A DNA stretch of 64,000 nt, taken from contig KV919123.1 in assembly GCA_002049455.2 (NCBI GenBank), forward strand, positions 1 through 64,000, written 5' to 3'. Source of the stretch: Porphyra umbilicalis (lineage: Eukaryota > Rhodophyta > Bangiophyceae > Bangiales > Bangiaceae). Within the stretch, counting starts at the first letter, position 1, and the number at the start of each line of letters is the position of its first letter. Under the pieces are notes generated by a model. The model was not told the DNA's origin. It ran no database searches and saw nothing but the letters and a program-made list of their open reading frames with translations. Positions 23,590-57,291 of the stretch are shown here, in pieces. Position numbers and translations under genes: made by a program.

Positions 23590-23623
23590 AATTACATTGA
23601 AGTGAATGTAAGTCCACCGGATC

Positions 23624-28242: not shown

Positions 28243-28385
28243 GTTGACGACAGCGGCGCAACCAAGCACCGCACTGACGACGTCGACGGCGGTATCGGCC
28301 CGCGCGACGCCGGAACACACCGCAACCCGAGCAACGTCGTCCGACCAGCGACCGCAGGGAAGACGACGATGACCACCAGCGACAG

Positions 28386-28400
28386 CTGGGCCCATAACCT
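28386..28400 (-). other. Primer-binding site matching the anticodon arm of initiator tRNA-Met
   Basis: The plus strand reads GCTGGGCCCATAACC directly before the 5' LTR end. That is the sequence of the initiator tRNA-Met anticodon stem-loop around CAU, so the minus strand is complementary to it. Drosophila copia is known to prime from a half-tRNA cleaved in this loop; this element appears to do the same. Confidence 0.85.
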
Positions 28401-34333: not shown

Positions 34334-34355
34334 GCAGGAAGCACGACCGGGGGTG

Positions 34356-36143: not shown

Positions 36144-36244
36144 CGTCACTGCCGCGACGCACACACACACCGCGTCCGGTCCGAGCCCGACGCACGTCGG
36201 CACCCGTCAACGGGCACACCCCACACAGCCAGGCATACACCTCG

Positions 36245-36252
36245 TATTTATA
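36245..36252 (-). promoter_or_regulatory. TATA box of the ParB-methyltransferase-SET locus
   Basis: TATAAATA on the minus strand within GCCTATAAATACG, about 100 bp before the ATG at 36143. Same box type as in front of the genes at 44648 and 51764. Confidence 0.65.
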
Positions 36253-36383
36253 GGCGTGTCGCAGGGTGCACTGCGTGCGCAATGACGAGCAGTGCTGGTG
36301 CGCCAGGCGTACCAGTTCCGCACCGCAGCGCGCACGCCCACCGAGGGTGTGACGCCGGCGGTATATTCTACACGTTTCATTTG

Positions 36384-37967: not shown

Positions 37968-38595
37968 GAAGGAATATTCTGGATCATAATCCCACACATT
38001 CTCGACACATCGGGGGGCTTCCTCGGCCACTACCGGTTGAACTGATGGCCATGTGTTTGTCAGTGTCTTTGCTGCCCAATGATACACCCCTCACAGCAAC
38101 CCCCATGTTCTCGTACCTCAAGACCCTTTGTGGGAAGCCTGAAAGCGGAACACGGCACAAGTGACGGACAGTTCTATTTAGTCTTCTCAAGGACGCAATC
38201 TTCTTGCAAGGTGGTCACCGCCTGGTGTCCAATCTGCCAACGCTAAATTCAGGCTCTGATGAAGCTCGAATAAGGCGCACTCTCATATGGCCTGGAAACG
38301 CAATCTTACTGGGGTGTCTGGGGCACCCCCTGCAAGCTTTCATCTCACACAGTCGCCGAGTTCGTGCATTGGTAAGTGGACTGCGCTGAGACTACATCAC
38401 TCCTCGAGCAGCCGAGGCAAGGAATATGGTTTCAGAGTGGCAGCCCATCTCTTGGAGGGTGCTCTGGGCGTGCCCAGGGCACGCCCAGGACACACATGCA
38501 GGGCACGAAGAGGACACGCCGACACACAGGGGTCCCCCCAGGACGCACCCCCTGTAGCCACATCGAGGTGGTTGATTTTGCAGATTATCATTTTG
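37968..38595. other. Spacer, no gene
   Basis: Mixed composition; from 38450 it carries short GC-rich direct repeats (GGGCGTGCCC, GGGCACGCCC, GGACACG) leading into the tandem array. Confidence 0.4.
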
Positions 38596-39394
38596 GTAGC
38601 CCACCAGGCTACCATAAAACCAACGGTACTGCTAGAGTCAACTCTGGCAGGTTTTCCATTGGATTGTGGTACTGCGACCCATCTGGGGGGGGGTGCTCTG
38701 AGGGGGCCCCACCGGGGTCCTGGGAAGGTCTGCGGAGGCCGCCCCCCGGTAGCCACGTCGGGGTGGTTGATTTTGCAGATTATCATTTTGGTAGCCCACC
38801 AGGCTACCATAAAACCAACGGTATTGCTAGAGTCAACTCTGGCAGGTTTTCCATTGGATTGTGATACAGCGACCCATCTGGGGGGGGTGCTCTGAGGGGG
38901 CTCCACCGGCGTCCTGGGGGGGTCTGGGGTCACCACCGATGCGTGGGGGTGCTCCGACGCCGGCCCCCGGTAGCCTTGTCGGGGTGGTTGATTTCGCAGA
39001 ATTACGATTTTTGTAGCCCACCGGGCTACCATAAAACCAACGGTATTGCTAGAGTCAACTCTGGCAGGTTTTCCATTGGTTCGTGGTACTGCGACCCATC
39101 TGGGGGGGGGTGCTCTGAGGGGGCCCCACCGGTGTCCTGGGAAGGTCTGCGGAGGCCGCCCCCCGGTAGCCACGTCGGGGTGGTTGATTTTGCAGATTAT
39201 CATTTTGGTAGCCCACCAGGCTACCATAAAACCAACGGTATTGCTAGAGTCAACTCTGGCAGGTTTTCCATTGGATTGTGGTACAGCGACCCATCTTGGG
39301 GGGGGTGCTCTGAGGGGGCCCCACCGGCGTCCTGGGGGGGTCTGGGGTCACCACCGACGCGCGGGGGTGCTCCGAGGCCACCCTCTGGGACAAA
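38596..39394 (+). repeat. Tandem array of the palindromic repeat, four units
   Basis: Units start at 38596, 38791, 39013 and 39208 (spacings 195, 222, 195). Each has GTAGCCCACC(A/G)GGCTACC, then CATAAAACCAACGGTA, CTAGAGTCAACTCTGGCAGG, TTTTCCATTGG, a G run, TGCTCTGAGGGGG and a 3' GC-rich part. Alternating spacing implies a two-unit higher-order repeat. Confidence 0.88.
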
Positions 39395-39466
39395 GTCGCG
39401 ACGTGGGGGGGTTGCGTACACTGCTTGAGCGTGGTGTGCCGACCGACCACTGGTGTGCCACAGGTC

Positions 39467-39474
39467 TATATAAG
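39467..39474 (+). promoter_or_regulatory. TATA box, upstream copy
   Basis: TATATAAG in the first promoter unit, 323 bp before the ATG at 39790; likely redundant or driving a longer leader. Confidence 0.6.
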
Positions 39475-39650
39475 ACCTGGACCCTGTGCGTGCCCGCTCA
39501 GTCAGGTTACGGACCGGACCCGCTGGTGACGCGCAGGGGTGTCCCCAGGCCGCACCCGCGGTGGCCGCGTGGGGGAGGGTCGCGACGTGGGGGGGTTGCG
39601 TACACTGCTTGAGCGTGGTGTGCCGACCGACGACTGGTGTGCCACAGGTC

Positions 39651-39658
39651 TATATAAG
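39651..39658 (+). promoter_or_regulatory. TATA box, proximal copy
   Basis: TATATAAG in the second promoter unit, 139 bp before the ATG at 39790, a spacing similar to neighbouring genes. Confidence 0.7.
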
Positions 39659-41298
39659 ACCTGGACCCTGTGCGTGCCCGCTCAGTCAGGTTACGGACCT
39701 GACCCCCTGGTGCCGCACCTGTCACACCCCGAGACGCCGTCGTGCTTCTCAACCCCCCCCCCCCTCAACCGTGCGACGCTGAGAGTGTCATGGCGGCGTC
39801 TCTGGCTGGCGCGGCCGAAGGGTCGGTGCCCCTGCCCCCCACTGTCTTGCGCGATGTGAAGGTCGGAAGCCTGCGCATTCCGGATCTGATGCCCCGCCGT
39901 CAGTCCAGCTCATTGCTTCGTGACATCCTGGCAACCATTCGGCGATATCGCACATTGCCAGTCGCGCATGCACCGATCTTGTGCCTCGACCGTGAGGACC
40001 CGTCCTTCTTCTTCCCATGCGAGGGCGGTCATCGTGTGAGCGCGATCCTTCAAGCGCTGCGGGAGGGTATCTTGGGTGCAGGGGACATCATTCGCGCCCT
40101 CGTCATTGTCGACCAAGATGAGCAGAGCGTTTCCCTCTGCGACTCCATGCGCGCCCTTCTGGCGATGGAGTACAACGATCAAGGCCACAACATCGCACGC
40201 ACGACGGCGTACGACAGCATCACCACCAACCTCATGTTCTTCCGAGCCTGGTCGGCGGAGACTGCCATTGAGCTCAGCATTAGCAGTGCAGCCGAGTATG
40301 CCGCTGGGTACACCACCAAGCAGCTGTACGTCTCTTGCAGGGAGGCGCCGAGGACATTTGCTGCTCGACGTCAGGCCGTTGAGACGGTGGTCAAGGCTGT
40401 CTTTACCTTTCTGGCGAGCCCCAGGGCGCTACAGTTTCTGGGGAAGACTCTGGAGGAGGGCCGCTTTGAGCCACCCACCTACCCACACTACCGCTACAGT
40501 CTGACGGTGTTGGGCGCCCCAAGCCTGCGCAAGCCTCTCGCCCCTGAGTCGTCGGCCGACGAGCGGGTCCAAGTTCGCTGCGTGCTGCTGCGCGTGTTTG
40601 AGGCGTGGTACGACGTGCACATGGGCATTGATGGCGACACGCCTCGACCCTCGGAGGGGGTCGAACACCCCACCCTGACGGTCGCCCTAGCCAAGCGTAT
40701 TGGCGACTCCTTTGTTCCCTTTGTGCGAGGCATGACGCAAGCTGCGGTGATCGCCGGGAGATCGCTGGAGGAGGTGTTGGCTCTCCATTCGGGGCCTGCT
40801 GCCGATGTGCCGTACCCGTCGGTTGAGGACCGTTTGGTGTCCACGTTCCGCCACCTCGCTCCCCCGCCGTCATCTGTTGAGGAGGACAGTGACGGGCTGT
40901 TACAGGCCCAAGGGAATGGCTTGCGCGCCGACCTTGTGGACGCGCTCCGGCAGGATTCCGAGCACCCGCCCATTGTGGCGTGGGTCGTCCCTGGTCTTCC
41001 AGGCGCCTTCGACGCAGACGCGGCCGACGAAGAGGATGCATATGCGTCCACGCTCGGCCCGGACATTGACCAGGCTCTTGCGCGCCTTGATGGCGAGGAC
41101 TCGTAGAGCTTTATGGACCTTTTTCCAGAGACGTCGTCAGGGCCACTACCTGTGGTTCGTGTACCAACCGGGGACGAGCTTGCGTGTCATGCTCTCGTGG
41201 CTGCCGACCAGTGGCGTTTGGCGGATGCCGCTGGTGACGACGGCCCGCGCGGTACCCCCCGCGTGTCTGACGGTGGCGCCTCTGGTGACGGTGATGGG

Positions 41299-41778
41299 GA
41301 CGGGCCAGCCGGCACCACACCCCGTGCGGCTGACGGTGCGGCCTCTGGCGACGGTGGTGGGGACGGTGGAGGTGAAGACGGCGTCGGCCCGCACGGGCCG
41401 GTCACCGCCGGCACCACACCCCGTGTGGCTGACGCCTCTGGCGACAGTGGTGGGGACGGTGGGGACTCTGGTGGCGACGGCCCGCCCGTTACCCCCTGCG
41501 TGTCTGACGGTGGCGCCTCTGGCGTCGGTGATGGGGACGGGCCCGCCGGCACCACACCCCGTGCGGCTGACGGTGCGGCCTCTGGCGACGGTGGTGGGGA
41601 CGGTGGAGGTGATGACGGCGTCGGCCCGCACGGGCCGGTCACCGCCGGCACCACACCCCGTGTGGCTGACGCCTCTGGCGACAGTGGTGGGGACGGTGGG
41701 GACTCTGGTGGCGACGGCCCGCCCGTCACCCCGTGCGTGTCTGACGGTGGCGCCTCTGGCGACGGTGATGGGGACGGG
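41299..41778 (+). repeat. 240-bp coding tandem repeat, two copies
   Basis: GGGCC(A/C)GCCGGCACCACACC starts at 41299 and 41539. Each copy encodes about 80 Gly/Asp/Pro-rich residues (GTTPRAADGAASGDGGGDGG...). Few base differences, so a recent duplication within a low-complexity linker. Confidence 0.88.
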
Positions 41779-42358
41779 CCCGCCGGGCCAGGCGGCGCAG
41801 ACTGCACCCATGGCCGGATGGACGCACACGGCCTGGACCCCACTGGGGACTCTCACGTGGACGACCGAGGCGGACGTGCCCGGGCAGGTGACGGTGCGAA
41901 TGGTGGCGAGCCTCCCACGACACCCGCGACGGCGCTTGCCACGTCTGCCGCGGGGCGCGCGACTGTGCCGCCGAATGGCGCGGCGCCGCCGGCACGCGCT
42001 TCTCAACGTGCCCCTGCTCACACCACGCCTGGTGCTGCTCAGCCAAAGCGGCGTTTACCAGTGTCTGGCAAAGGTGCGACCCGGCGCGGGCGGTCTCCCG
42101 AGGTTGTCTAACTCACACCCGGCCGGGCGCGTTCCCCTCTTCGGAACGAACAAGCGGCGCGTGCGACCCGCTCGACCCGTGGCAGCCGAGCGACGGATGC
42201 CAGTCTCCCGACGACGCACACGGGGGGTGTGCGGCACCGTCGCCCTCCAGGTGCGAACGGTGTCCCTCTGCACGTGTACGCGCACCCCACGGCGAGCGCA
42301 GAGGACGCCAACTGGTTTCGCCGCGAGTGGGCCTGTGGTGCCAGCGCGGTTGCGTCTG

Positions 42359-42732
42359 TGTGAAGTCGGTGTGGTCAAGTGGGTGCGTTGTTTTACTATG
42401 GCAGAGGTCCTGGGCCGTGTCCAGCCACCTAATGTACCCCAGGCGGCCCCAGGACAGGTCGTCGGGCAGCCCGCTCTCGGAGCACACCCGCGTGCCTCAG
42501 TTCTCAGTGCGCGCGGGCCGCGGCGCACCTCCCAGAACGGGGCATGCACCTCCCCACACAAGCCCCCCCCCCCGAGCTCACCCCAGCAGAGAGTGCCCAC
42601 TACGAGACCACTAAAATCAAGTACACACAAGTACAAAACATACAACAAGTGCATAGGTAAATACCCAAAACTGAGTCCCAATGCTCAACCGGGTAAGTAC
42701 ACACAAATGGAATTGCTGAGCCATGCTCAACA
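42359..42732 (+). mobile_element. Solo copia LTR, 374 bp
   Basis: Begins TGTGAAGTCGG and ends CATGCTCAACA, matching the termini of the LTR at 23163. It shares GCGTTG.TTTACT, TACCCCAGGCG, GCGGCGCACCTCCCA and CAAGTACA blocks. It is flanked by GTCTG on both sides (42354-42358, 42733-42737). No internal region, so it is a solo LTR left by recombination; clearly older or from another subfamily than the full element. Confidence 0.92.
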
Positions 42733-44472
42733 GTCTGCTGCCGAGCGCGGTGGTCCGTCGCTCATGGGTGTGCTGACAACTCCCGCTTTCAGTGTGCTCG
42801 TGCCGACGGACCACCGTGCGAGGCTGGCGGTCCGTCGCCCGTTTTGGCTGGCCGTCGACGGGCGCGTCCGGACGTGGGGCCTGCTGCAGCGGATGCGACC
42901 GCTGACTGCCGTTGGCGAGCGCCCGGCGGAGCTCACACACGAACGCGTTGGGGGCGGGGTCGCGGCGGCCGCTTTTTTCAGTGCGAGCGCGACCCTGCTG
43001 TTCAGTCGAGGGTGGGTCACGCTGGACCACCTCGCAGACATGACGACGATGGGGGCCGTCGGTCACGACGTCGCGGCTGCTCTGTGGACGTTGCTGGCTG
43101 GCGCGACGGCCAAGTCGGAGGGGGACGTCAAGGTGTTGACCGCCGCTTCTCGATCGGCGTCGGACCCCTTTGCCACCATGCACTACAGCCGCCGTGTGGC
43201 AGACAAGGACCGGCCTGCCGCCGCCAAGGTGGACCTCCTGATTGCGTGCATCTTTCACCACTTGACGGCGGCGTTCCGTGACGCACACGAGCAGGAGGAC
43301 GCCCCATTCCTGGTCGAAGGACGCCGCGTCGAGGCCGGGTGTGGTCACGTGCGAGTGACGGCCCCTGACGCGGTTCGCAGTCCGTTCTTCCACTATGGGG
43401 AGCCGGACCCGATCGTGGCGCCAGAGATTTCGACCGTTCGAGCAGACGGCAAATTTGTGGCGCTCGTCACGGCGACCAACGCGCATGTCATTGAGTGGGG
43501 GCCGTCGTCTACACCTGCGTTCCTGCCCCCCTTCTCCTTCACGTTCATCCGCCAGAACCTCCGCCACGCGTACGCCAGTCGGGAGGTCGTGGCGCGCGTC
43601 GCGGTCATGTACTCGGGGGTCGAAGCCGACGACGTGGTTACCATGGTCTTGCGGCGCACGCATCCCAACCTACTAGACGCGCCTGCGCTGCGAGGCGGAG
43701 CCTGCGCTGTGTACGAGCTGCACCTGGCACAGGGAGGCATTCGTGGCCATCGGGTTGCGGACGTGGTCAGCGGCTCGCGGCGTCCTCCGGGCATGACGAC
43801 TGCCATGGAGGCGCTGACAGCGGCGGCCCAGGCGCACGTCAGCCTGCGGGCGTTTGACCCTGGGGAGTTGGAAGCGACTACCTCCCGCGTCGTGCCCTCC
43901 CCCAAGCCGGCGAGGCCGACGCTGCGTGCCCACACGGCGTTGGCTGGGATGACCGCACCGCCCCGCGACGCGACATTGTCGAGGATGGTCCGGCTACTCC
44001 CATCCGAAGCGCAGCCGTCGTCCGACTCGGACGGGCAACGTGCGGCGAGCGCCAAGGATGCGGATTACGAGGCCGGGGGATCCCCCTCGGGATCCTCCTC
44101 CAGCACCTCCTCATCAGACGACTCGGAGGGCTCCACATCTGGGTCGAGCACAGAGGGCAGTTTCAACGACGCGTCGACGGCCTGACGCATACAATACCGG
44201 CAGTGTGCGCTTGTGTGTTCGTGGGCTGTTTTTGTGACCCCACCCCACCGTTGCTGCTCGTGTGTCAGTGGTGCTCCACTGTTTGCGCTTCACGTGTGGT
44301 GCCAAAAGACTGTCGATTTTAGGGTGGATATCAACGTTGTCCGACGGTCCTCACCCCAATGGAACACCGGCCACCGTTGGCCCTGCCAATATGCTTTTCA
44401 CAATTGCTGCCCCCGTTCCTTCCGTCCTGCCTGTGAATGCGGCACGTGGCGCGGTCGGTCGCCGGCGGTGTC

Positions 44473-44478
44473 TATAAG
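44473..44478 (+). promoter_or_regulatory. TATA box of the Ulp1-like gene
   Basis: TCTATAAGAAA, 175 bp before the ATG at 44648; same TCTATA.AAG form as at 39651. Confidence 0.6.
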
Positions 44479-44647
44479 AAAGGCTCGACAAACCACAGCG
44501 GTGGGGGCCGTGCACGTTCCGTTGTCGCCGGCACCCGCGGGCGGTGCACTCCCGCGACGTGTGGTGCAGAGGAGACGCCCGCCGCAGCTTTTTGGTGCCC
44601 GAGCGTCGAGTGCGCGTGCCGGCCCGTCGTTGCCGTTGGTTGCCGCC

Positions 44648-45565
44648 ATGCCGCGCGCTCCTGATAAGATCGTTCTTTGGCCACGTCACTCCGTGCCGCG
44701 CTCTATCGTCAACGGTGTCCTCCTCGGCCGCGACTTTACCGACGACATTGTCAATGCACTACTCACAGCGCTCCTGACCCTCTCCGCCGACAAGGCCACC
44801 TCGTCCGCGACGTGGATTGTGGACAGCGCCGTCGTCGGGCGCATGCTCGGCGGAGAGATCGGCGAGCGACAGACGGGCTCGCGTGCCCCGTCCGTGGGCC
44901 AGTGGGCCGCAGATCCGTGGCACCCGTTTTGCACCAACTTCCACCAGTTCCTGCGCCCCGACATTTTCGACCAATCACACATTCTACTGCCAGTCGTCAT
45001 GGAGGATCACTGGTTCCTTTTGGTCGTCGTCAACCCACCTGCGCTGCTCCCTGTGCTTCACACGGCGGTGGCGGAGAGCACCCACGACAGTGGCCGCGAG
45101 GCAGCGTGGGCGCCGCCACCGACGTCCCCGCCCGTTCCCGACGCACCGTGTCACTTCCTCGTCTTCAACTCGTTTCGCTCGCTGTGGGACCACGAGCGCT
45201 ACGTCGTTGCCGTTGTGCGCTCCTGGATTCTCGACATGATTCGCGTGCACAAGGCGGTCGCCGCTGGCGATCGACAGCACCTGGTCGAGACACTTGTCAG
45301 TGGCACGCCCGTGCACCGCATCATCGTCGGGCCGCAAACCCACGGCAACTTGTGCGGTGCCTTTCTACTGGCCGCTGCGGACGCGTACCTCCGAGAGTCG
45401 GACGTCGGCCGGTCTCGGTTGTGGCTCGAACGTTGGGGCCCGGACCAAGAGGAGCAATATTGGGTCGGTCCCACTTCCGGTGACTCGTGGCAACAGTTCC
45501 TCCGCTCGTGGCGCAATGGCATTCTCGACTGGGATGAGTCTATGGCCAAGTCCCGAGTTGGGTGA
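44648..45565 (+). CDS. Ulp1/adenain-like C48 cysteine protease, 305 aa
   Basis: ATG at 44648 (GCCGCCATGC context). Putative SUMO-type peptidase fold: HPFCTNFHQFLRPDIFDQS, then VVMEDHWFLLVVV with catalytic His ~121, FLVFNSFRS with Asn ~174 at the position usually Asp, and PQTHGNLCGAFLL with oxyanion Gln ~230 and nucleophile Cys ~236. The six-residue Gln-Cys spacing is typical. Length suits a bare catalytic domain. Intact single frame to TGA. C48 proteases are common accessory genes of eukaryotic DNA transposons, which fits the surroundings. Confidence 0.75.
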   Translation: MPRAPDKIVLWPRHSVPRSIVNGVLLGRDFTDDIVNALLTALLTLSADKATSSATWIVDSAVVGRMLGGEIGERQTGSRAPSVGQWAADPWHPFCTNFHQFLRPDIFDQSHILLPVVMEDHWFLLVVVNPPALLPVLHTAVAESTHDSGREAAWAPPPTSPPVPDAPCHFLVFNSFRSLWDHERYVVAVVRSWILDMIRVHKAVAAGDRQHLVETLVSGTPVHRIIVGPQTHGNLCGAFLLAAADAYLRESDVGRSRLWLERWGPDQEEQYWVGPTSGDSWQQFLRSWRNGILDWDESMAKSRVG

Positions 45566-45768
45566 CCCGTGCGTGACGCGCGTGCGTGCCGTCGAGGCAG
45601 AGGGCCCCGAGTGCAACCGACAGACAGGGCGTGTGGTGGCACGTGGCGGGAGTGTTGGTTGACCAATTGCGACGGGTTTTGTAGATTTGATCACCGCCGC
45701 GCACGACCGGTCGGTGGCCGTGCGCGGCGGCCCCCTTTTTTCTTGTCTCGACGCCTCCTGGCGATGTG

Positions 45769-45774
45769 TATAAG
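45769..45774 (+). promoter_or_regulatory. TATA box of the small basic-repeat gene
   Basis: TATAAG in GTGTATAAGAGGG, 162 bp before the ATG at 45931. Confidence 0.55.
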
Positions 45775-45930
45775 AGGGTCCTCTGCCCAGTCTGCAGACC
45801 ACCCCCCCGGCGACGTGTGCGCGTTTCGTCTGCTCAGCGCTCGTCGGTGGCCCGACCGGCCTGCGGGACCGCGTGCACCCACCAACAACACCCCGGGGCG
45901 ACGCGCGCGTGCATCGTTCCCACCCCACCA

Positions 45931-46401
45931 ATGACCCGCGAGGAGGTGGAGACGCAAGCGCTGGTGATGCTCTCCCTCCTGGCCGTGACCCCGCGTGAAC
46001 TCGGTGGCACCCTGGACGACGACCCGGGTGTGGTTGACGGTGCGGAACGCTCGGCGTCTGCCGGTTCCCCTGCACACGCACTGCGATCCGACGCATCCGC
46101 GACTGGTGTCGGCCGCAAGCGCCCACGTGCATCAGACGGTGCTGGCGCATCAGACGGTGCTGCCGACTCTGCGAACAAGCGCCACCGCCGCGCATTCGTT
46201 GCCGACGCCGGCAACAAGCGCACACGTGCTGCCTTCGCGGCTGGCGCGCCGCCCGCGGCATCAGTCGGTGCTGCGGACTCTGCGACCAAGCGCAATCGCC
46301 GCGCACCCGTTGCCGACGCCGAGGAGGCGACCAAGACCGCCTCCCTCAAGACAGTCGGTCGGAGTCGTCCATCGCCGCCTGCGTCTCCGGGGACTCGATA
46401 G
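45931..46401 (+). CDS. Small basic repeat protein, 156 aa
   Basis: ATG at 45931 (CACCAATGA). A short N-terminal helix (REEVETQALVMLSLLA), then three or four repeats of about 27 residues around a basic core: RKRPRAS, NKRHRRAF, NKRTRAAF, TKRNRRAP, separated by GAADSA-type acidic/Ser/Ala spacers. The cores look like nuclear-localisation or nucleic-acid-binding patches. Intact, TAG stop. It has its own TATA box. No family recognised; role inferred only as nuclear. Confidence 0.55.
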   Translation: MTREEVETQALVMLSLLAVTPRELGGTLDDDPGVVDGAERSASAGSPAHALRSDASATGVGRKRPRASDGAGASDGAADSANKRHRRAFVADAGNKRTRAAFAAGAPPAASVGAADSATKRNRRAPVADAEEATKTASLKTVGRSRPSPPASPGTR

Positions 46402-47092
46402 TTGCGACCGTGTTGGCCGCGACCTTGCAAGCAAGCCGGTGTGGACCACACGATCACTTGCCGAGGTGTCTTTTTCGTTGGGGGAGTCGCGCCTCACCAG
46501 CGCCTCGGCGGGTTGTGTCGCGTGGGGGTAGCAACACCGTGGGGACAGCGTCTGTCTCTGACCGTCGAGTGGGTCTGGTTCTCTGGCGGGTTTTTCAATG
46601 TTTTTCGTCACCCGACACAGTCCTTTCCGCTGCGTCTGCACAGCCCTGCGGGGCGTAGCTGTTCCCATGGTGCGCAGGTTTGGTTGAGTTTTGAAAACGA
46701 CGCCCCCCAGGCTACCGTAAAACCTCAGAGATTGCCAGAGTCAACTCTGGCAGGTTTTCCATTGGATTGTTGTGCAGGGCCCCACTGTCAGTGGGTGCGC
46801 GGCAGACGCCCCAGAGTGGCCGTCCGCGGTGGGGGGGGTCGTTTTTCTTGTGGAAACCCCCGTCTGGAGAATGGGGTCGACTTTTGGAGACGTCGCCCCC
46901 CAGGCGACGTCTCCAACAGTCGACCCCAGCACCCGCGCTGTTGGATGCACGACGGTGTCGCACCTGGGACGGCCCACGTGTGCTCTGGTGGGAGCGGTGC
47001 CGCCGGCGGCCGCCCACCTGCACGGCTACTTGAGCGACACGCACGCGTCTGGACGGGCGCGTGTGCGCGCGCGCTGCCACTGCGTCTGACCG
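46402..47092. other. Spacer with a palindromic-family repeat and a large hairpin
   Basis: 46706-46775 is a degraded copy of the GTAGCC repeat family (GGCTACCGTAAAACC...CCAGAGTCAACTCTGGCAGG...CCATTGGATTG). The hairpin at 46873-46927 is listed separately. No gene. Confidence 0.6.
46873..46927. repeat. Long near-perfect palindrome
   Basis: Inner arms GGAGACGTCGCC (46886-46897) and GGCGACGTCTCC (46903-46914) and outer arms GGGGTCGAC (46873-46881) and GTCGACCCC (46919-46927) pair completely, separated by short unpaired bases. It could extrude as a cruciform or fold as RNA. Confidence 0.85.
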
Positions 47093-48148
47093 ATGGCGGC
47101 CTGTGCGCCCCCGCGCGGCTACTTCAACGGCGTCGGCACGTCCCGTCGGGGGTCGTCCGCCGCCCGTTGCGCGTGTGGTCGCGCGTCGGCCGCACTCGGC
47201 GTGTGTGTGCTGCTCGCGGCCGACCCGTCTGGCGTCGCGCGCCCCCCAGATCGTGCAGACGCGGTCACGGCCGACGCCTCTGCCCGTGCGATGGATACCG
47301 ACGATGTCGCCTGCACGGTGGTCCAACAGATTCGTGAGCACAAGGGCAAGTGGATCATCTCCCACATGGGGATTAAGGAGGCGTCTGACGTGCGGGCCGA
47401 GGTGGTGGAGGCCATTAAGCAGCTGTTGCAGTCGACGGGCGCGCCCGTGTGGGGCGTCTTTGCGCACCACAACGGCATCCGAGATGTCGGCTGGCTGGCA
47501 ATGGAAGCGCAGTGGCGTGTGCGCGTCTTGGACGTTTCCCACAACCCATTGGACGACTTCCCCACGGCCGTGCTGGCTGCGCTCGCGCCCACGCTCGAGC
47601 ACGCGCGGCTGAGCCACTGTGGGCTGACGGTCGCGACCATGCCGACAGCGCCCATGAAGCAACTGGCTGTCCTCAACTTGTCCAACAACCGGCTGCAAGG
47701 GTGGCCCGCGGCTCTGACACGCAGGGGCGTGCCGAGCCTGGTAGTGTTGGATCTGTCCAACAACGTGCTCACCACCGTCGCCACCGTTTCGGCTGTGCCG
47801 TCGACCGTTCAGGCCGTCGACGTGCGCCACAACCCGGCTTGCGAGGACCCCACCTGGGCGGCTGCGGCCACTATACGCCGTTGGCACACTGGTCCGACGC
47901 GTCGACCGACACCGCCACCGCCGCCCCTGCAGTTGCTCCAGGACCTGCCGCCGGTGCGTCGTCGGATAGATGCGGACCAGGCGTCGCCCGCTGACGACGT
48001 CGGCGGGAACGCGACGGTAGCGGCAGCCGACGCGGGCGGTGCAAAGAACGCGACGCGCGCGCGCGACGCCGCGAGCGCAAACGGTGCGGCGCCCGACACG
48101 CACCAGGCCGCCGGACGGCAAGTCGGCCCGCTCCACCATTGCGCGTAG
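47093..48148 (+). CDS. Leucine-rich-repeat protein, 351 aa
   Basis: ATG at 47093; an alternative ATG at 47290 (MDTDDVACTVVQQI) would skip a Cys/Arg/Ala-rich leader of doubtful value. The centre has four or five LRRs: VRVLDVSHNPLDDFP, HARLSHCGLTVA, LAVLNLSNNRLQGWP, LVVLDLSNNVLTTV, VQAVDVRHNPACEDP. The last one ends in the xxNPxxC cap seen in LRR domains. The C-terminus is Ala/Asp-rich and disordered. Likely a protein-interaction domain, with no membrane segment. Intact frame. It is the last gene of the plus-strand cassette; no TATA box was identified. Confidence 0.65.
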   Translation: MAACAPPRGYFNGVGTSRRGSSAARCACGRASAALGVCVLLAADPSGVARPPDRADAVTADASARAMDTDDVACTVVQQIREHKGKWIISHMGIKEASDVRAEVVEAIKQLLQSTGAPVWGVFAHHNGIRDVGWLAMEAQWRVRVLDVSHNPLDDFPTAVLAALAPTLEHARLSHCGLTVATMPTAPMKQLAVLNLSNNRLQGWPAALTRRGVPSLVVLDLSNNVLTTVATVSAVPSTVQAVDVRHNPACEDPTWAAAATIRRWHTGPTRRPTPPPPPLQLLQDLPPVRRRIDADQASPADDVGGNATVAAADAGGAKNATRARDAASANGAAPDTHQAAGRQVGPLHHCA

Positions 48149-48328
48149 CAGTCCCTTGAAGTACACTTGGGACCAAGTACCATTAGAGTAGTTTGGCGGT
48201 TTGCGTTGCACTGGGATGTACTCGAAAAGGTCGCTCGGCTTTTGCCTCCATGACAACGTGTGCTTGCCCTTGAACCCCGTCAGAGTGAGGGCCGGTTGGT
48301 TGGAGAAACAGAATTCATTACACACTGA

Positions 48329-48872
48329 GAGCATCTCCACCAATGGCTCCAACCGTCCAAACAGCCAAACGTGGCACCGTTTGGCCAACGGGGGCATTGG
48401 TGGAGAAAGCGAGGTCCAAAACTAGTGTGTGACGGTGGTGTGACGGCCCAAAAATAGCACTCCTCACATTTTCTAATCCCTTAATGCATCTCGTGGTGGC
48501 CTCGCGGGATCGCCCTTCTTTTGGAGCTTGAACGGCAGCGCCACTCCAAACAGGCCTGTTTGGAGACGCCCCGAGTCGTTTGGCCAACCCCTGGTTCCCT
48601 GTTCGGACCACGAAAGCCAATGGAAAGCGTGACCCGTGGCTTGCAGAGAGTTGCGAGACGATCTCGCAGTCATGGAGATTCTCTGTAGTGCATCTGTGGG
48701 AATACTGGCGTGCCACAAAAGAGGCCCACCGCCAGAGACGTCGAGGCGAGCCTAAGTTTGAGACGTGATCTGCTTAGTTTTGGCTCTACCTTTGGAGAGC
48801 CAGTGACAGCGCCACACGTTGCGCACACGTGGCCGTTGGGTTGGACGGTTGGCTCCATTGGTGGAGATGCTC
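48329..48872. mobile_element. PIF/Harbinger-like MITE, 544 bp
   Basis: Ends are inverted: GAGCATCTCCACCAATGG at 48329 and its mirror ending at 48872, with continued similarity (CCAACCGTCCAA). A 3-bp TGA flanks both sides (48326-48328, 48873-48875), fitting the TNA targets of PIF/Harbinger. A third internal inverted copy (CATTGGTGGAGA, 48394-48405) is present. No coding capacity. Confidence 0.8.
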
Positions 48873-48875
48873 TGA

Positions 48876-49794
48876 CCCGCCAAAGGCGGCAGTTGCAGAG
48901 TGGTGGCAATAACCATGTAGCAAACGTGGACCAATGGAATCACGGGATGCGAAAAGATTTCCGATCGACATGACCGTTCCGTCTGGAACCGCGGTGCCAC
49001 CCGGTATGTGGCCTTTTGCGGGGGGGTACGACAGTGCGCCGGGCAGGTGTGACACAGTCCTCGTTGGGCACCGTATTGCTGTCTTCCCAATTTTGGCCGA
49101 TGTGGTCGAAGTCAAGACAGGCTCTTGGTCAACTGCCCATCGGTCGAACGACTTCATCCGGCTGAATGGATGGCTGAGAAACTGTTTCGCACAGTTGACC
49201 ATCCCTCTTGACATCGACGGCATCGGCCAAAATTGGGAAGACAGCAATAGGGAGACCAGCAGCAGACATTCACTCGCGTCAATGCCAGTCGTACGCGTAC
49301 GCCGCGGTCACGGTTCGTCGCGCCGCGATACCGTACACAGATCCAACCGTTTCTTGATGTATCGAAATCTCGACCGCACACACTGTTTCATAGCCTGTTA
49401 CCGATTTCCGAAGGTCGGAATACGCAAATATTTCGCTGAGCGCTACAGTGGACAGTCAATATCCGGTGTGATACGCTCCAGTCATATATCAGGGTGATAT
49501 ATAACTGGGAGATTCCCCCAACGAGGGTGCACCATGTCAATCACGAATGTCGTCGCTGTGACGCACGACCCTGGCAGACACTTGCGTGTACGAGCAAGTC
49601 AGGGGGGTGCCACCCAGAATCTGAAAAACGAAATCCGATAACAACGGTACTTTAGAAAAAGCATCAAGCCACGCACCGGTCGCCCCGCGGACAACCGCCG
49701 CACCACCGGCGCAGGGACAGGGACGATCCGGCCCCAGACACGGGGCCAGGAGCTGGTGCGCCGCAGGGGCAGCAGGAGCTGGTGCGCCGCAGGT
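48876..49794. other. Spacer, no gene
   Basis: AT-richer than its surroundings. A plus-strand frame 48934-49497 is open but has no recognisable features. Near 49484-49502 ATATATCAGGGTGATATAT forms a short palindrome. 49749-49797 holds a 27-bp duplication (GGAGCTGGTGCGCCGCAGG). Confidence 0.4.
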
Positions 49795-50286
49795 GCAGCC
49801 ACCCGGCGACGCGACTGCCCGGCACCCACGCGACGCAGCGGCGGGTCGCGACGCACCCCTTTTATAGGCGCGCGCGGGCGCACGTCGGGCCCCCGCCAGC
49901 GGGGCGCGCGGCGCCGTGCAGCCACCCGGCGACGCGACTGCCCGGCACCCACGCGACGCAGCTGCGGGCCGCGACGCACCCCTTTTATAGGCGCACGCGG
50001 GCGCACGTCGGGCCCCCGCCCGCGGGGCGCGCGGCGCGGTGCAGCCACCCGGCGACGCGACTGCCTGGCACCCACGCGACGCAGCTGCGGGCCGCGACGC
50101 ACCCCTTTTATAGGCGCGCGCGGGCGCACGTCGGGCCCGTGCGCGCGGGGCGCGCGGCGCGGTGCAGCCACCCGGCGACGCGACTGCCTGGCACCCACGC
50201 GACGCAGCTGCGGGCCGCGACGCACCCCTTTTGTAGGCGCGCGCGGGCGCACGTCGGGCCCGTGCGCGCGGGGCGCGTGGCCCCAT
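49795..50286 (-). repeat. Tandem array, 4 x 123 bp, carrying minus-strand TATA boxes
   Basis: Units begin GCAGCCACCCGGCGACGCGAC at 49795, 49918, 50041 and 50164. Each contains CCTTTTATAGG (CCTATAAAAGG on the minus strand; CCTTTTGTAGG in the fourth). The period is a multiple of three, which keeps a 41-codon Arg/Ala/Pro frame open as a by-product. The TATA form matches that of the Fanzor-like gene (GCCTATAAAAGCG). Confidence 0.88.
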
Positions 50287-51520
50287 GGGGCCTCACGTGG
50301 CGGACACCCCGTCTGCCCCGGACGACGCGACGGCGCTGTTTGGGCCCTTGCCGGTGGGGGCGCGCTTTGTGCAGTGCACCCCCCACCCCCCTTTTTCGGT
50401 GCACCACAGTAGCCAGTACCCGCCGCGTGCCTCGTCGCCGACAGACACATACCACTCAAGCGAGGCCGCCGACGGTCGCCCACAGACTGGCGATCGAGGC
50501 ACTTTCTCGCTCCATGCCAGGCGGTCTGGCGACTGCTGCACACCCCAACCGCCATTGGTTGTGCCAGGCAGGGCCCTTCCGGCGACGACCTGGGAAAAAG
50601 TAGCCGTCTCAAACGGGTGTGGCAGCAACCCCGCAGGGGTGTCTGATCAACTGGGAATGACGGTACCACCACAGCACGGGCACGTGGACGGGCGCAGCCG
50701 TCGATCCTACCGCACGGTGCGAACGGCCCCACCACACGCGCACGAGCATCCCAGAGCCTCCCGGCGCCAGCCCATACTTCCTACCACCCCCCCCCCCACC
50801 TATCCAGCATGCCATGTCCTGCTCACCAACCCCCCGCGGGCGCGCCTACCCAATGCCAAGTTCCGTGCAGCACCAGTCACTGAACGCAGCGGTGGGAGGT
50901 GGTGGCTGCAGCGCCACCCTGCAACAACGAGCGTGGTCGGTGTTGTCTGGCACGGCCAATGCATGCGGCAGATGGAACAGCCGCACTGTCCTGCCATGCG
51001 AGTTAGAGGCCTGTGAGGGTCAAGATTTGCGAGGGGTAATAGATAATATATGTATATGGCGATATGACGATCTCTGATGGCGCACCGATAGACGCGCGCT
51101 TACAGACATACTGGGCGCTTTCCACAACTTCCGACCATTCGCGAGCGCCGTGACCGCGGAATGTCGGTCCAATGTGTGACACAATATACTCGTTTGTAGC
51201 CACACCCAACGCGTCGGTGGCGCCCCTGTCGCGTGCACGCTGTCACGCACGCCGGTCGGCCGCCGCTGCCTCTGTTTGGGCGACGCGCCGCATCGGGCAC
51301 CCCGCATAGGCGTGCCGTGTGAGGCCTGCAGCCGCCCCAGCGCCGCGCAAAGACCACGTACGTGCGCGCGGCTGGTGGCGCACCGCGTCGATCTCGGCAC
51401 GCCGCTGCGCAGCAGCGCAATGGGTGCCGCGCCCCCGTCGGTCGTGCCGTGGCGGTCCGTACCGTGTCGTGTCGCAGCGTCTACCACGTCGCTCGTGCCG
51501 CCGGCATCCGTACGCGTGCC
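50287..51520. other. Ambiguous stretch between the tandem array and the Fanzor-like gene
   Basis: A plus frame (50285-51016, 243 codons, starts at an ATG right at the array edge) and a minus frame (WYVSVGDEARGGYWLLWC near 50400-50460) both look partly protein-like; neither has a recognised domain. One of them could be a small gene served by the TATA array. Confidence 0.3.
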
Positions 51521-51528
51521 TATAAAAG
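51521..51528 (+). promoter_or_regulatory. TATA box of the Fanzor-like gene
   Basis: TATAAAAG within GCCTATAAAAGCGCC, 243 bp upstream of the first in-frame ATG (51764). Confidence 0.65.
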
Positions 51529-51763
51529 CGCCACCGACCGGGACCGATGGGCGGCACCAGCAGGCGCAACAGCGCACACTGGGCCGACGCCCCCCGCCGC
51601 CGCGCGTGCCGGCGGCGCGGGGCGTTTCGTGCGCGCCGCCCCCCCCTTGTTGAGCGCGGCTGCAGCCGCACGCCCCCGCCTGCCCCCCTCCCCCACCCCG
51701 GCCGGTAGACGGTGTCACCCGCCGTGGTGCCCCCCGCCTGTACGGCGCGCGGTACGTTGGGGT

Positions 51764-54700
51764 ATGGCCGACCCGGGTGACAGTGCCCGTACGCCTCTCG
51801 GGCAGGCGACACACCCTGGTCTGTGGGGATTTGTTCGACACGGCCCCACTCCCCGCGTCCCCGACGCGGCGGGTGTCGGCGGGCACGCCCGTGCTCGCCG
51901 GAACGACGCCATGCGGGTGGACGCACCCCCGTCCGTCGCCAGCAGCAAACACTCGCGTCGCGCGGCTGGTACCGGCGCCGGTGCGTGCGGCACGGTCCCG
52001 CTGGGGGGCATTGGGGCGACACCCGGCGGCGACGCAGACGATGTGTCGTCCACAGACGAGGAGGAGGCGCCCGGCACGTCAACGGCGCTGCGAGCGCGTC
52101 GCGGCCGCACCGCGACGCGGCGGTCGGCCATGATGGCGGGCGGTGGTGCCGGCAGCGGCAATGGCTCACGGGCGGGTGTGGCAGACGGCACCGGGCCCGC
52201 GGGTGGGGGCACCGCTGGCGGCGGCGCACGGGCCGTGGCCGCGACCACCAGAGTCGGTGCCGCGGTCGGTCCCGGCGACGACACTCGTGCCTCGGCGAAT
52301 GGCGGCGACCACGGCGGTCTGCTCCCTCGCGCAGGAGGGGGTGCCCCCGACAGCCGCCCACAAGCAACCGGGGGCGTCCCCGCGCGCCCCGCGCCGTCGG
52401 CGAGTGTCCCAAGCGGCCCCCGTGTGCCCGGCGGGGTGCCCCCCCCGTCGGCACCAGTGACCGTCCCCGCCCCACAGACAGCTGGTGGGAGCGGCGGTGG
52501 GGACGGTGGGGGCGGGGACGGCCCCGTCGACGGACCCGTCGACAAGGACCTCGACCGTGACGACGCCGTCACGCGTTTGGGTGCGACCGGCGGGGACTCG
52601 GCCATCAAGGCTGGCGGCCACGTAGACGCCGCGCGACAATGTGCCGCGTCTGCCGTGCGGTCCGCGACGGTCGAAGTCGCCGCCGCCGCCGCCGCGTGCG
52701 AGGCGGCCGGCGACGTGGGGCCGGTCGGCCCCTTGCGAGACGCGAGCACCCTGCTGGCCAAGCAGCTCGCAGCAAACTCCGTGCACGCGCGGGGCACCAC
52801 GTCGTACGCGTCGGCAGCGCTGGGCGACGCCGAGTCGGCCTCGACCGCAGTGCTGCGAGCCGTCCACGCGGTGACCGTGCCGCCGCACAGACCACCCGCT
52901 GCCGTCCCTGGGGACGGCGGCGCGGCAGACGCTGCCGCCGGCGCTGCGACAGCCGCCGACAATGCCGCGGTGGTCGCCTGTCGGCGACTGCGCGCGCGCG
53001 CCTGGCACGCCGCATGCAGCGTCTTGTCCGCGGCCAAGGGCTTGATCCCCATGGCAACCCCCGACGCGGGGAACCACCCGGGCGACGACGCGAGTGCCGC
53101 TGCAGTGGGCGCGCCGGCGAGCGGCGGCGGCAAGCGCTCTGGTCGACGCCACTGTGGTGGCTGCGGGGCGACGGGGCACTACGTGCGGACGTGTCCAGCC
53201 GACGCAGCCGCCAAGGCTGCGCACGCGGCGCGCGTGGCGGCCGCCCGGGCGGCCAAGGGCGCCAGTGCCGGCAGCGGCCGGACCAGGTGCGGTGCGTGTC
53301 ACGCGCGGGGCCACAAGCGCGCGAGCGCAGCGTACCCGCTGCGTGCCGTCACCCACGGCTGGTCGGACCACAATGAGGACCGCGGCCGCGACTTGGCGTG
53401 CGCCGACCAGTACCGCATGACGGGGGAGGTGACGACGACGGTGGTCGTGTCAGTCGACCGCTTCTTTGGTGTTTGGCGGCGGCGGCTGCCGGCGCCGCCG
53501 GCAGACTGCCCGCCGCCAGCCGGATGCCCGCCGACCACCTCGGCTCATCGCAAGACCAAGGCGTCTGCCGAGGCCGACACCAATGCGGCGGCGGGCGCGG
53601 CTGCGCTGACAGAGTTGGCAACGGCGCAGACGCAGCATCTGCGCCTCGTCTCCATTGTCATGCACGGCACGATGCGGTACCTGCTCGAGCGCGTCGACGG
53701 CGGTGGCGGCGGGCTGGGTGCGGGTGGTGGTGGCGGCGGCCGACGCACGCTCGGCGATTTTATGGCGGCCGTGCCGGCGTCGCTGACGGGCAGCCACGGG
53801 CTTGCGTGGAAGCAGGTCGCCTCGACCGTCTCGTGTCGCGGTGTCCACGCGTTTGACGGCGCCCCCCGGCGGGCGTGTGTCTCTTGCTCGGGGCGGCGCG
53901 CGCACGCCAAGCCACGTGCGGACGTCAAGGCAGCAGCAGGCGACGGCGATTACACCGCCTTTGTTGCTGCGTCGGCGGCAGTGGCGGCGGCCGTAATAGA
54001 GCCAGAGCAGCTGCCGTGCAGCACGCTGCTGCCGAGTCCGGCCGACACGGGCGGCTGGGTGACCGTGGCAACATCGTTTGAAAACCACTATGTGACGCAC
54101 GTCACGTCGGCGGTCAAGGCCATTGCAAAGTGCATCGTCCTCGCGGTCTACCCGCAGACCCCGGGCGGGTCAGACGGGAACCCCCGCGCGGCACTGATTG
54201 CGGCCCTCGTTTCCGGCCTGCAAGCCGCCGACGGCACGCGCCCGCCGTCGTTCAAGTGGCCGACGGGCACGCCTGCAGCGGACAGGCAAGCCATGGCGGC
54301 CGCCGCGGCGCTGGCCTACGACACCGTCCTCGTGTACACGGATGCCGGCGGTCGGCGGCCCTCGCTGCTGTACCTAGACACGTTGGCCCTGCGACAGCGG
54401 CCACTGCACGTCTACTCGTTGCTGCACTATGCCCAGGCCCTGTGCGTCGGCGCCGGTATCGAGGCGGCCGACACGTCACCCGGCCGATTCGCTACGTGCA
54501 CCGGGTACGCGCGCGTCAGCGGCGCGCTTCTCCGCAAGCGTTTGGCGGCCCACGGGGGGTCCATCCCACCACAGACGGTCGACTGTTTGGTCGTGAAGGC
54601 GCTGCTCCGCCGCGCGGGCATCATCGGCGCCTCGACGCTCGTTGGCCCCTCCATCGTGTCGGACGGCGTCGGCGTGCACTTTACGATACGACACCCCGCC

Positions 54701-57232
54701 ACTGCCGCGTCGACGGCGGCCGCTTGGCGGGCGCGCCGCAGGGCGGCCAGTGACGGTCGCGGGGGGGGGGGTCCGACCGAGACGGCGAGCGTGCGGACGC
54801 AGCTCGACCGAATGGCGTTTGCGCCCGACGCTGTCAAGGCGCTCGTCTTTGTCGGGTGGGACCCAGGCGTCGCGTCCATCGTCGCTGCCTACTGCCCCGG
54901 CGCAGTGCCGCTTGCGCTCTCACCGGCACCGCACCTGCACGCGTACCGGGCGTATCGGGCGCTGCGGATTGCAGCCGACGCGCTCGCGCGGGCCGCCATG
55001 GCCGCGACCGCAGCTGCAGAGTGCCACGTGCGGCGCGGCGGTCGGGGACCGCCGACCGTCGACGCGCTGCGTGCAACGGTGGCCCAGATTATTCGTGCGG
55101 CCAAGGTCACCGCGGCTGGCTTACCCGTCGGCGGCGGTGACGCGGTGTGCGGGACGACCAAAAAGCGCGGCCGTGGCGCGCTCGGCGCGTCGACCGGGGC
55201 GGAGGGGTCTCCCCCAAAGCAGAGTCGTGGAGCTTTGGTGGGCCCGCCGGCGGCCACACCGGCGGCGCAGGCGTCTGTGCCGCCTTTGAACCACGCACCG
55301 ACGGAGCCGGCCGCTGAGCTGGACCCCCCCCCCCCCCTGACCCGCCCAAGCGGCCACGGTACACGCAGCCTACATACGGCGACGCGTGGCTGACGCCCGT
55401 CCAGCGGCAAGAGGTCGCCCGCAAGCGGGGGACGAGCGGCCCCGACGGCCGGCGGCCGCTGCTGACGCGCCTGCGCGCGCTCGCACACGCCGCGGTCAAC
55501 GACGGCGGCGTCCAACCGTGGCGCCTCCCCAACCACGTGTGTGCGTGGATGGGCGAGGCGGCCCTGTTCAAAGCGTCGACCGACGCGGCCGCCGACGCAG
55601 GCGCCAAGGCTGAGGCGGCAGCGAACGCAGAGACGGCGTGGCACGCCCTGTCGGTCGGGGGCCACCGACACGCTGCGCGCGTCTGGCACAGCGCGGCGCG
55701 TACCGCGAAACAGACGGCGGCGGCATTGCGCAGGGCAGAGCGAGTGGCGGCTGCGGCGGCCGCTGCTGCACCCGCTGCGCCCCCGCAGCTCGGCGCGCCC
55801 GGCACGTCGCAGCCGTCGGCCGACCGCTTGCGTGTGTTGTGTGTCGCACTCAAACGTGCGGCCGCCGCCGCGGGGCGCCGGCGCGTGTGCGTCCCGCCCA
55901 CTGGTGCGACGCTGGTCGTCTCCAAAGGCGCGTACCGCGACGGGCGCCGGTATGACGAGGCGCGCCGAGGCGGCAGCGGTGGCGGCGTGGGCGGCGGCAC
56001 ACCCAGGCGTGCCGCGCGAGTCACTGACGGCCGGGTGCTCCCTCAAGGTCGCGACGTGGGGCGCGTGGGTGGTGGCGGCCACTGCGCGCGTTGCGCGCAC
56101 CAACACAGACGCCTATCAGGCGGCGTACGGGGCGGCCGCGACGTCGGGCCGGCGAAAGGCGCGCCTGCACGCCCTCATCCAGCGCAACCGGTACGCGACA
56201 AAGTTGGCCCACCGCATGACGGGTGGGCTCCTGCGGCGCACGGTGGACGGCACCAAGGCGGTGCTGGCCATTGGCCGGTGCAGGCCCCGCGCCGGCAGCG
56301 TCGACCTCCTGCGGCGCATGGCCAAACACGTGCACGTCGTGTACGTGAACGAGCACAATACGAGCCAGACGTGCGCCGAGTGCGTTCACGTCTTGTGCAA
56401 CACGTACGTGTCGCCCGATTCGCCGGTGGACCTGACGCCCCTCAAGGCGGTAAGCAGCTACGCGCATCGCGCGTCGGTGTCGGTGTCGGCGGCCAAGCGC
56501 GCCTCGCCCCTCCGCGGCGGCCGGCGCGCGCGACGGGGTGTGACGACCGGCAGTCGGTCAGGCCCACGCGACGGTGCGGCTGCCCAGCGCGCCAAGGAGC
56601 ACGCAGAGGCGGTGCGGACAAAGTTACTACAGGCGATTGCGGCTCACGGCAAGTGGGCGTTTGGGACCGACCCGCTGGCGCTGTGGGGGGTCAAGCTGTG
56701 CACCAACGCCGCGTGTCCCGCGACGTACGTCGGGCGAGACACCAACGCGGCGCGCAATATGTCCAAGATTGCCATCAAGAGCATGCAGGGTCGGAGCATC
56801 TGCCCCCACATCCGGGGTTACACCGTGTCACGCGCGCCACCCCAGGAAGACCCAGTCCAGGCGACGCGGCACGCGGCTGCGATCGAGGCGGGTACCTACG
56901 AGGCCGGCTACGGGTGGACACGCTGTTCACCCACGTCGTGGCAGCGTTGGCGCCGACCTGTCGTCACCGACCCGGCGGTCGTGGAGGCCGGGACGGCCCC
57001 CACGGCCGTGCCAGTGGCGGCGCCAACGGTGCGGGTAGAGGCGCTGGGTGTGGTGGCAGACGAAGCGCACGATGCAGCTGCTGCGTCGGCAAGCGGTGAC
57101 CTGGCGACGAGTAACGTCGGCCAGATGGCTGCTGCCAGCCCCGCGCCAGCCGTAGGACGCAGCCACTCGTCTTCGAGCCGCCTCGAGCGGGTAATCGTAG
57201 ACTGTTCACCAGGTTCATCTCGTGGGGTGTGA
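51764..57232 (+). pseudogene. Fanzor (eukaryotic TnpB-like) RuvC nuclease with two frameshifts
   Basis: ATG at 51764, about 1,820 codons in all. The first ~450 residues are a disordered Gly/Ala/Pro/Asp-rich extension. Then come a CCHC knuckle CGGCGATGHYVRTC (~463) and a second Cys/His motif (CGACHARGH, ~507), and a folded middle region. RuvC-I follows as FVGWDPGVAS (Asp ~1032). At the C run 55327-55338 the frame shifts by one and near 55965 it returns. RuvC-II reads VNEHNTSQTC (56344 on), with zinc-ribbon Cys pairs CAEC and CTNAAC, and RuvC-III reads GRDTNAARNM (56729 on). The Asp-Glu-Asp triad, the TS..C..C ribbon and the D.NAA.N motif are the TnpB/Fanzor hallmark. Fanzors are RNA-guided DNA nucleases carried by eukaryotic transposons. 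Either two indel errors or a recently damaged gene. No transposon ends were found. Confidence 0.75.
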
Positions 57233-57234
57233 AT

Positions 57235-57291
57235 AGGGAGCTTCGCTCCTCACCTCTTCCAGAGGTGACTACTGGTTTTCTGAAGAACCAG
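57235..57291 (+). ncRNA. Three consecutive hairpins after the Fanzor stop; candidate omega/guide RNA scaffold
   Basis: Starting 3 nt after the TGA: hairpin 1, 57236-57250 (GGGAGC/GCTCCT, tiny UUC loop); hairpin 2, 57251-57267 (CACCTCT TCC AGAGGTG, seven perfect pairs); hairpin 3, 57272-57291 (CTGGTTTT CTGA AGAACCAG, eight pairs with one G-U). Only four bases separate 2 and 3 and none separates 1 and 2. In TnpB and Fanzor loci the guide RNA overlaps or follows the 3' end of the nuclease gene, so the position fits. It could instead be a 3'-UTR or termination structure. The guide segment would lie just downstream. Confidence 0.5.

Follow-up and report, generated by a model that had tools for sequence, protein, structure and literature searches.

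A Fanzor1-type nuclease gene at the right end of a giant Helitron2-like element of Porphyra umbilicalis, with a candidate guide-RNA scaffold at the element terminus

The window analyzed here is a stretch of 64,000 nucleotides from Porphyra umbilicalis (contig KV919123.1 of assembly GCA_002049455.2, positions 1 to 64,000 of the forward strand). It contains a gene for a Fanzor-type nuclease, the last gene of a giant Helitron2-like mobile element that measures 41.6 kb in the window and ~35 kb without its nested insertions; the element terminates 43 nt past the stop codon of the nuclease gene. Feature coordinates are given in Table 1. The gene begins with an ATG at 51764, has its stop codon at 57230-57232 and is shifted in frame twice in the window copy, in a run of C at ~55323-55337 and again at ~55930-55955. 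The C run is unbroken in the window and in copy L022 and is interrupted by a T in L028, L033 and L035; homopolymer slippage or a sequencing error may explain this first break. The copy at C3 has an ATG-started open reading frame (ORF) that is open, without interruption, over 1,824 amino acids (aa).

A first-pass annotation, made from the letters of the DNA, had recognized a TnpB/Fanzor nuclease by its motifs, and all of these (GWDPGVAS, EHNTS, a Cys ribbon and GRDTNAARN) are present. In the open copy at C3 the RuvC aspartates are residues 1027 and 1652, the glutamate is residue 1525, and the ribbon cysteines are C1532/C1535/C1639/C1644. The RuvC-I aspartate (1027, in GWDPG) has the DPG form of the Fanzor lineage, and SDGVGVHF, at residue 960, differs by one residue from the Fanzor1 WED ‘TDG’ motif (PMC10711439). 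The pattern [TS][TS]XX, C4 ribbon, X(5,50), RD is found as TSQT, four cysteines and an RD 6 residues on, with CTNAAC at 56699-56716 and GRDTNAARN at 56732-56758. Profile searches bore out the family assignment in part: PF07282 (Cas12f1-like_TNB) matches window positions 55466-57232 at a significant E value (6.8e-5), but the score of 23.4 bits is under the cut-off of 26.3. The open copy scores 19.7 bits; elsewhere in this genome, where PF07282 has at least 32 matches, copies score up to 28.1 bits. A search of NCBIfam gave the TnpB model only at E 0.26, far under its cut-off. The unusually long N-terminus that had been described is confirmed. Of the two zinc knuckles placed there, the first (53153-53194; residue 457 of the open copy) is intact, while the second (53288-53341) lacks its final Cys in the window copy; the Pfam knuckle matches are weak (E 0.015 and 0.02, both under cut-off). 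Judged by these sequence features, the product is a Fanzor/TnpB-type nuclease, very large and of the Fanzor1 type.

The genome that was searched comprises 83.8 Mb in 665 contigs; in every slice search a portion of the candidates was scored. The C-terminal 425 residues of the window protein have 99 matches in it. Among the 66 matches compared, 47 exceed 1 kb, including that of the window; the remaining 46 share 79-93% identity with the window copy, and some contain stop codons. The ratio of nonsynonymous to synonymous substitution (dN/dS) is 0.28-0.55 across 28 pairs from 8 copies, with the last 40 codons excluded, and by this measure the protein is under purifying selection. At fourfold sites, 19/456 comparisons (4.2%) differ within the last 24 codons versus 1973/12321 (16.0%) elsewhere, these counts coming from 32 non-independent pairs.

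Both ends of the element can be placed to the base. The right boundary (...GACTACTGG, then T) falls at the identical base in 34/34 distinct right ends. On the left, 13 ends were fetched, namely those where matches began at the boundary; 11 start exactly at TAGCGAAGCTTC and the other two lack the first ~15 nt. T follows all 34 right ends and precedes 12/12 intact left ends (the 11 fetched and that of the window), a TT target and a 1-bp duplication of T being indistinguishable. An element start just upstream of the ORF was rejected, as homology continued further left, and a classic transposon with terminal inverted repeats was rejected, as the left end has no inverted copy of the right end.

The element is mobile and present in multiple copies. 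Allowing up to 2 mismatches, the right end matches at 76 places in the genome and the left end at 127; reversed-pattern controls gave 0. Correctly oriented left-right pairs number 14 and span 14.2 to 84.5 kb; pairing used 100 of the 127 left ends plus that of the window, and another left end might fall within a pair. The longest pairs probably contain nested elements. Slice searches followed co-linear copies back to 15637 at C60, C88, C272 and C31, with only 23 and 2 candidates scored for slices 24100-44000 and 28900-44100, respectively. At C60, C88 and C272 the flanks were seen on both sides and differ between copies. Both flanks were seen for seven pairs (window, C60, C88, C272, C8, C33 and C5), all of them bounded by T. 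None shares 5 or more bases between its flanks; C8 shares TCAT and C33 TAT, which we take as chance. The 127 left ends in the genome stand beside 76 type-1 and 11 type-2 right-end matches, and there may be further elements with this left end and a third kind of right end.

In Helitron2 elements the 5' repeat lies no more than 2 bp from the 5' end, the 5' terminal base is T and targets are T-rich; the inverted partner of the repeat lies ~20-30 bp from the 3' end, just before a hairpin, and a 5' terminal hairpin also forms from the 5' repeat (PMC3627910). The ends described here have much of this organization. The left AGCGAAGCT is the inverted complement of the right AGCTTCGCT, with the asymmetric placement of Helitron2. 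The right-end repeat (57240-57248) lies 27 nt before 57275 and is followed by the hairpin at 57251-57267, the 5' repeat and terminal T are present as TAGCGAAGCT in 11 of the 13 fetched left ends, and the target is T-rich, without a long duplication, at the ends examined.

The first-pass annotation had also pointed out three tandem hairpins after the stop codon, at the place of an omega/fRNA scaffold; they do not form a free-standing one. All three fold (57235-57250, 57251-57267 and 57272-57291; z -3.2, 1/200 shuffles as good), and the first two, folded as DNA, reach z -4.3 (0/200 shuffles), but these two belong to the transposon end. The third starts in the last bases of the element and enters flank that varies between copies, and was rejected as part of the system. 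The observation was largely right and its interpretation half right; a longer fold, from 57208 in the coding sequence to the last bases of the element, would be the stronger RNA candidate. The terminal hairpin lies 8 nt before the last base of the element. Four right ends of another lineage have the stem GCGCCCTG/CGGGGTGC, or near it, with the same columns paired; this pairing at the same columns in divergent right ends suggests that the hairpin is kept by selection. Three divergent right ends folded as DNA gave z -1.3, -2.1 and -1.0, weaker than the window.

When 57160-57276 is folded as RNA, a closing stem forms between ACCAG (57208-57212) and CUGGU (57272-57276). Among 29 distinct right ends, which were chosen by a motif that fixes parts of this stem and leaves the letter combination of the middle pair free between classes, the middle pair is C-G in 23, U-G in 2 and U-A in 4. 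Over both helices 94.2% of the cells are paired and 18 have changed on both sides, values that 0/500 shuffles reach in either respect; slid-partner controls paired at most 50%, and RNAalifold recovers both helices unaided. The structures at the 3' end are conserved and covary at other copies; with this and a significant profile match, neither outcome set to refute the first-pass annotation was seen, so far as sequence can show. An Rfam scan of the window gave nothing at gathering score.

A second element inserts at this end. Units of ~8.2 kb lie on the opposite strand within the right end of the giant element at C447, C288 and C55 (loci L039-L046; C447:30795-39160, C288:81611-98179, C55:7743-24271). 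They encode what we take, from its motifs, to be a reverse transcriptase (RT); for this protein Pfam gave nothing and the PDB only unrelated weak matches. In five units the 5' junction follows the base matching 57160 (5/5) and the 3' junction precedes ~57237 (5/5), and because these junctions recur in all five, each insertion duplicates a stretch of 78 bp. The tandem arrays at C288 and C55 arose by repeated insertion. At seven more loci the 3' end of an RT-bearing unit lies beside a Fanzor (L015, L020 and L033, and, by eye, L076, L077, L080 and L082). The insertion splits the Fanzor gene from the terminal hairpin and flank, so that a gene-free end remains outside.

Taken together, we consider it probable that this locus is the right end of a giant Helitron2-like transposon with a terminal Fanzor1-type nuclease gene, and that RNA of this end acts as scaffold with the flank as guide. 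Fanzor1 RNAs from three other species are 75-150 nt long and use the 3' flank as guide (PMC11423790, PMC10432273). The architecture fits this rule: the element ends 43 nt past the stop codon, and it is at this end that the fold closes. RNA covering the last part of the gene together with the transposon terminus (~57208-57276) would be the omega-RNA scaffold. Its closing stem would combine the last codons of the gene, the last bases of the element and the T of the target site. The flank just beyond the element would be the guide, each insertion programming the nuclease against its own empty site, and cutting of that site would lead to the element being copied back, as proposed for TnpB (PMC10432273). 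More speculatively, and with doubts that somewhat outweigh our confidence, the terminus of the element and the guide RNA of the Fanzor that it carries may have become one, each insertion reading a guide from its flank, and the RT-bearing element may parasitise this very spot.

Several observations weigh against this interpretation. On the side of the protein, the window copy is broken in frame, the gap of 500 residues between RuvC-I and RuvC-II departs from the spacing D-X(125,275)-[TS][TS] (PMC3627910), and no PDB chain matches the nuclease by sequence even at E 10. On the side of the RNA, the whole 117-nt fold is unremarkable (z -1.6, 9/200 shuffles), and the 5' arm is missing from two right ends outside the alignment, L038 and L093. 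The invariant pairs of the closing stem are partly so by construction, because the selecting motif itself prescribes parts of it. Two lineages account for most of the covarying changes, and neither the double-change pairs (211/500 shuffles as high) nor the pair types (205/500) rise above shuffles; we regard the evidence from covariation as real but modest. The same structure could serve single-stranded DNA in rolling-circle transposition, and both roles may be true. On the side of the element, the 5' hairpin amounts to a 4-bp pairing with a long loop, which 183/200 shuffles match, and of 26 places tested for RepHel (PF14214), from at least 28 genome matches, 0 lie within the 14 paired elements. 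We call the element Helitron2-like and non-autonomous because of this lack of RepHel in the paired elements and the weak 5' hairpin, and the former indicates that it is probably moved in trans. At C170 one RepHel lies ~15 kb from a left end, which by rough estimate is about what chance would give.

The most durable alternative, which we nevertheless hold to be unlikely, is that the conserved 3' structure is only an end signal for replication, the Fanzor being a passenger whose RNA lies elsewhere or has been lost. The terminal hairpin and asymmetric repeat do match Helitron2 ends for which the available part of the description gives no RNA role (PMC3627910), and the end is kept without the gene: for 33/76 right ends, none of the 66 Fanzor matches compared places a core immediately upstream, and some gene-free right ends are outer junctions of the RT-bearing element. 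Against this reading stand a closing stem with one arm in the coding sequence and the target T in the other, and synonymous sites that differ less at the end of the gene. No such closing stem figures in the available part of the Helitron2 description (PMC3627910), and some Fanzor1 RNAs reportedly include transposon ends and target duplications (PMC10711439).

Another class of enzyme (another HUH enzyme, or an unrecognised cargo protein) might move the element, its likeness to Helitron2 being convergent. The paired elements without RepHel, the weak 5' hairpin and several cargo proteins without a family match are in keeping with this, but asymmetric repeats, their spacing, the 3' hairpin, T on both sides and the lack of a consistent longer duplication all fit Helitron2, and RepHel genes are present elsewhere in the genome; we think this explanation distinctly improbable. 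The protease, ATPase and methylase cargo would suit a Fanzor-bearing endogenous virus or Polinton. However, the window ORFs that were searched, a part of the total, have no polymerase, integrase or capsid family, copia aside; searches of phages, plasmids and viral contigs found no relative of the nuclease, none being confirmed in the viral contigs; and no inverted copy of the right end lies elsewhere in the window, which makes this origin very unlikely. A large segmental duplication or subtelomeric block rather than a mobile element, as the very long, co-linear copies might suggest, is already contradicted by both ends stopping at the same base amid unrelated flanks at the sites seen, and deserves next to no credence.

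Table 1. Features of the giant element and its terminal nuclease gene in the window.
Position	Strand	Feature	Basis
15637..57275	+	giant Helitron2-like mobile element, left TAGCGAAG.., right ..CTACTGG; 57276 is the target T	shared boundaries, co-linear copies, paired ends
15637..15648	+	left terminus with 5' asymmetric terminal inverted repeat	AGCGAAGCT in other copies, one mismatch in the window
20158..20811	-	AAA ATPase fragment, cargo	PF00004 E 6.8e-27
23163..28822	-	nested copia long terminal repeat (LTR) retrotransposon, LTRs 23163-23583 and 28398-28822, 99.5% identical	LTR comparison
28688..30076	-	AAA ATPase, cargo; 3' end of ORF overlaps copia LTR	PF00004 E 1.2e-26
32330..34192	-	N4/N6-type DNA methylase, cargo	PF01555 E 4.8e-12, phrog_67 E 1e-15
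36384..39344	.	intergenic palindrome-rich repeat array, both orientations	repeat searches
39790..41106	+	unknown protein, 438 aa, cargo	no Pfam match
44648..45565	+	Ulp1/C48-type cysteine protease, cargo	PF02902 22.1 bits, cut-off 20.7
47093..48148	+	leucine-rich-repeat protein, cargo	PF12799 E 3.6e-9
48325..48875	.	nested ~549-bp repeat, 33-nt inverted ends, many other genome sites	slice searches
51764..57232	+	Fanzor-type gene, two frame breaks in the window copy	motifs, PF07282, open-copy comparison
53153..53194	+	zinc knuckle CX2CX4HX4C	Pfam (weak), motif check
54659..54682	+	SDGVGVHF, like the Fanzor1 WED ‘TDG’ motif	motif per PMC10711439
54854..54877	+	RuvC-I GWDPGVAS, DPG signature	DPG per PMC10711439
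56348..56383	+	RuvC-II EHNTS and first Cys pair of the ribbon, NEHNTSQTCAEC	motif check
56699..56758	+	second Cys pair of the ribbon and RuvC-III GRDTN	Pfam and motif check
57160..57237	+	78-bp stretch duplicated by the RT-bearing element in other copies; window without the insertion	junctions
57208..57276	+	candidate omega-RNA scaffold, stem 57208-57212/57272-57276 including the target T	RNA folding, covariation
57240..57248	+	3' asymmetric terminal inverted repeat AGCTTCGCT	within hairpin 1 of the first-pass annotation
57251..57267	+	terminal hairpin CACCTCT/AGAGGTG, 8 nt before the last element base	folding and covariation

The copia element, with at least 23 close copies elsewhere in the genome, is a later insertion and stands outside the system; the ~549-bp repeat and a short repeat of ~375 bp near 42360-42735 are also later arrivals. 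Window positions 22109-46771 hold 9 occurrences, facing either way, of a 35-nt motif with AGAGTCAACTCT (0 in 100 shuffles). The motif is confined to the giant element, often adjoins a GTAGCC..GGCTAC palindrome and is possibly a regulatory or replication signal. Immediately outside the element, 58529-62341 holds an ORF with what is presumably a SWIM-like Cys/His pattern and, after it, a gene for a C48 protease (PF02902 E 2.1e-20); this is perhaps another transposon. A DDE_1/Tc5-type transposase gene lies at 2239-3972 on the minus strand (PF03184 E 6.9e-15).

Why eukaryotic transposons retain Fanzors is a question for which this family allows a direct test: it comprises dozens of copies whose ends are mapped exactly and whose differing flanks would each supply a different guide, its protein is under purifying selection, and its 3' structure covaries. 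In the open-access literature, searched by titles and term counts, there was no giant Helitron with a Fanzor and no work joining Fanzor and zinc knuckle. As far as this search goes, the following appear to be new: how large the element and the predicted protein are, the presence of a knuckle, covariation at an end of which the target base is part, and an RT-bearing element that targets this end.

A Fanzor within a non-autonomous Helitron2 is already known: CRe-1, -2 and -3 of Chlamydomonas carry Fanzor1 in such elements (Bao and Jurka 2013, PMC3627910). The element described here shares with them a Fanzor1-type protein, a non-autonomous state, asymmetric terminal inverted repeats, a 3' hairpin and T-rich insertion sites. 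As reported in the available part of that source, CRe proteins are encoded by 5-10 exons, whereas the family in the window has one uninterrupted ORF in its open copy, and CRe target duplications are ~7-19 bp, whereas none is consistent beyond T here. Also unlike CRe, the element is giant, carries several other genes and encodes a knuckle-bearing protein of 1,824 aa. The nuclease belongs to the Fanzor family along with GtFz1, SpuFz1 and PpFz1, whose RNAs are 75-150 nt with a 3' guide (PMC10432273, PMC11423790); most Fz1 proteins described there have 600-700 aa, in contrast to the 1,824 aa and the 500-residue RuvC-I/RuvC-II gap found here. The Cys pairs are separated by 103 residues, again unlike Fz1, and no PDB chain matches the nuclease by sequence.

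In the IS200/IS605 TnpB systems the omega-RNA lies at the right end of the transposon. Here, too, the nuclease gene abuts the right end, and the RNA would overlap the 3' end of the gene with the flank as guide. Unlike IS200/IS605, the element is eukaryotic and its host element is giant; no TnpA was seen, and none was searched for. The RT-bearing unit is reminiscent of rotifer R9, a site-specific non-LTR retroelement with a 126-bp target duplication: both are site-specific with a long duplication, but the target here is a transposon terminus and the duplication 78 bp. Finally, the giant Helitrons of maize reach 39 kb with cargo of up to nine gene fragments (PMC6431247, a 2019 review). They resemble the present element as very long rolling-circle elements with captured genes, but in place of gene fragments the cargo here includes long ORFs, and a Fanzor holds a fixed place at the end. 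Should each of the larger left-right pairs prove to be one element, these would surpass the 39-kb maximum given for maize in the available part of that review (PMC6431247).

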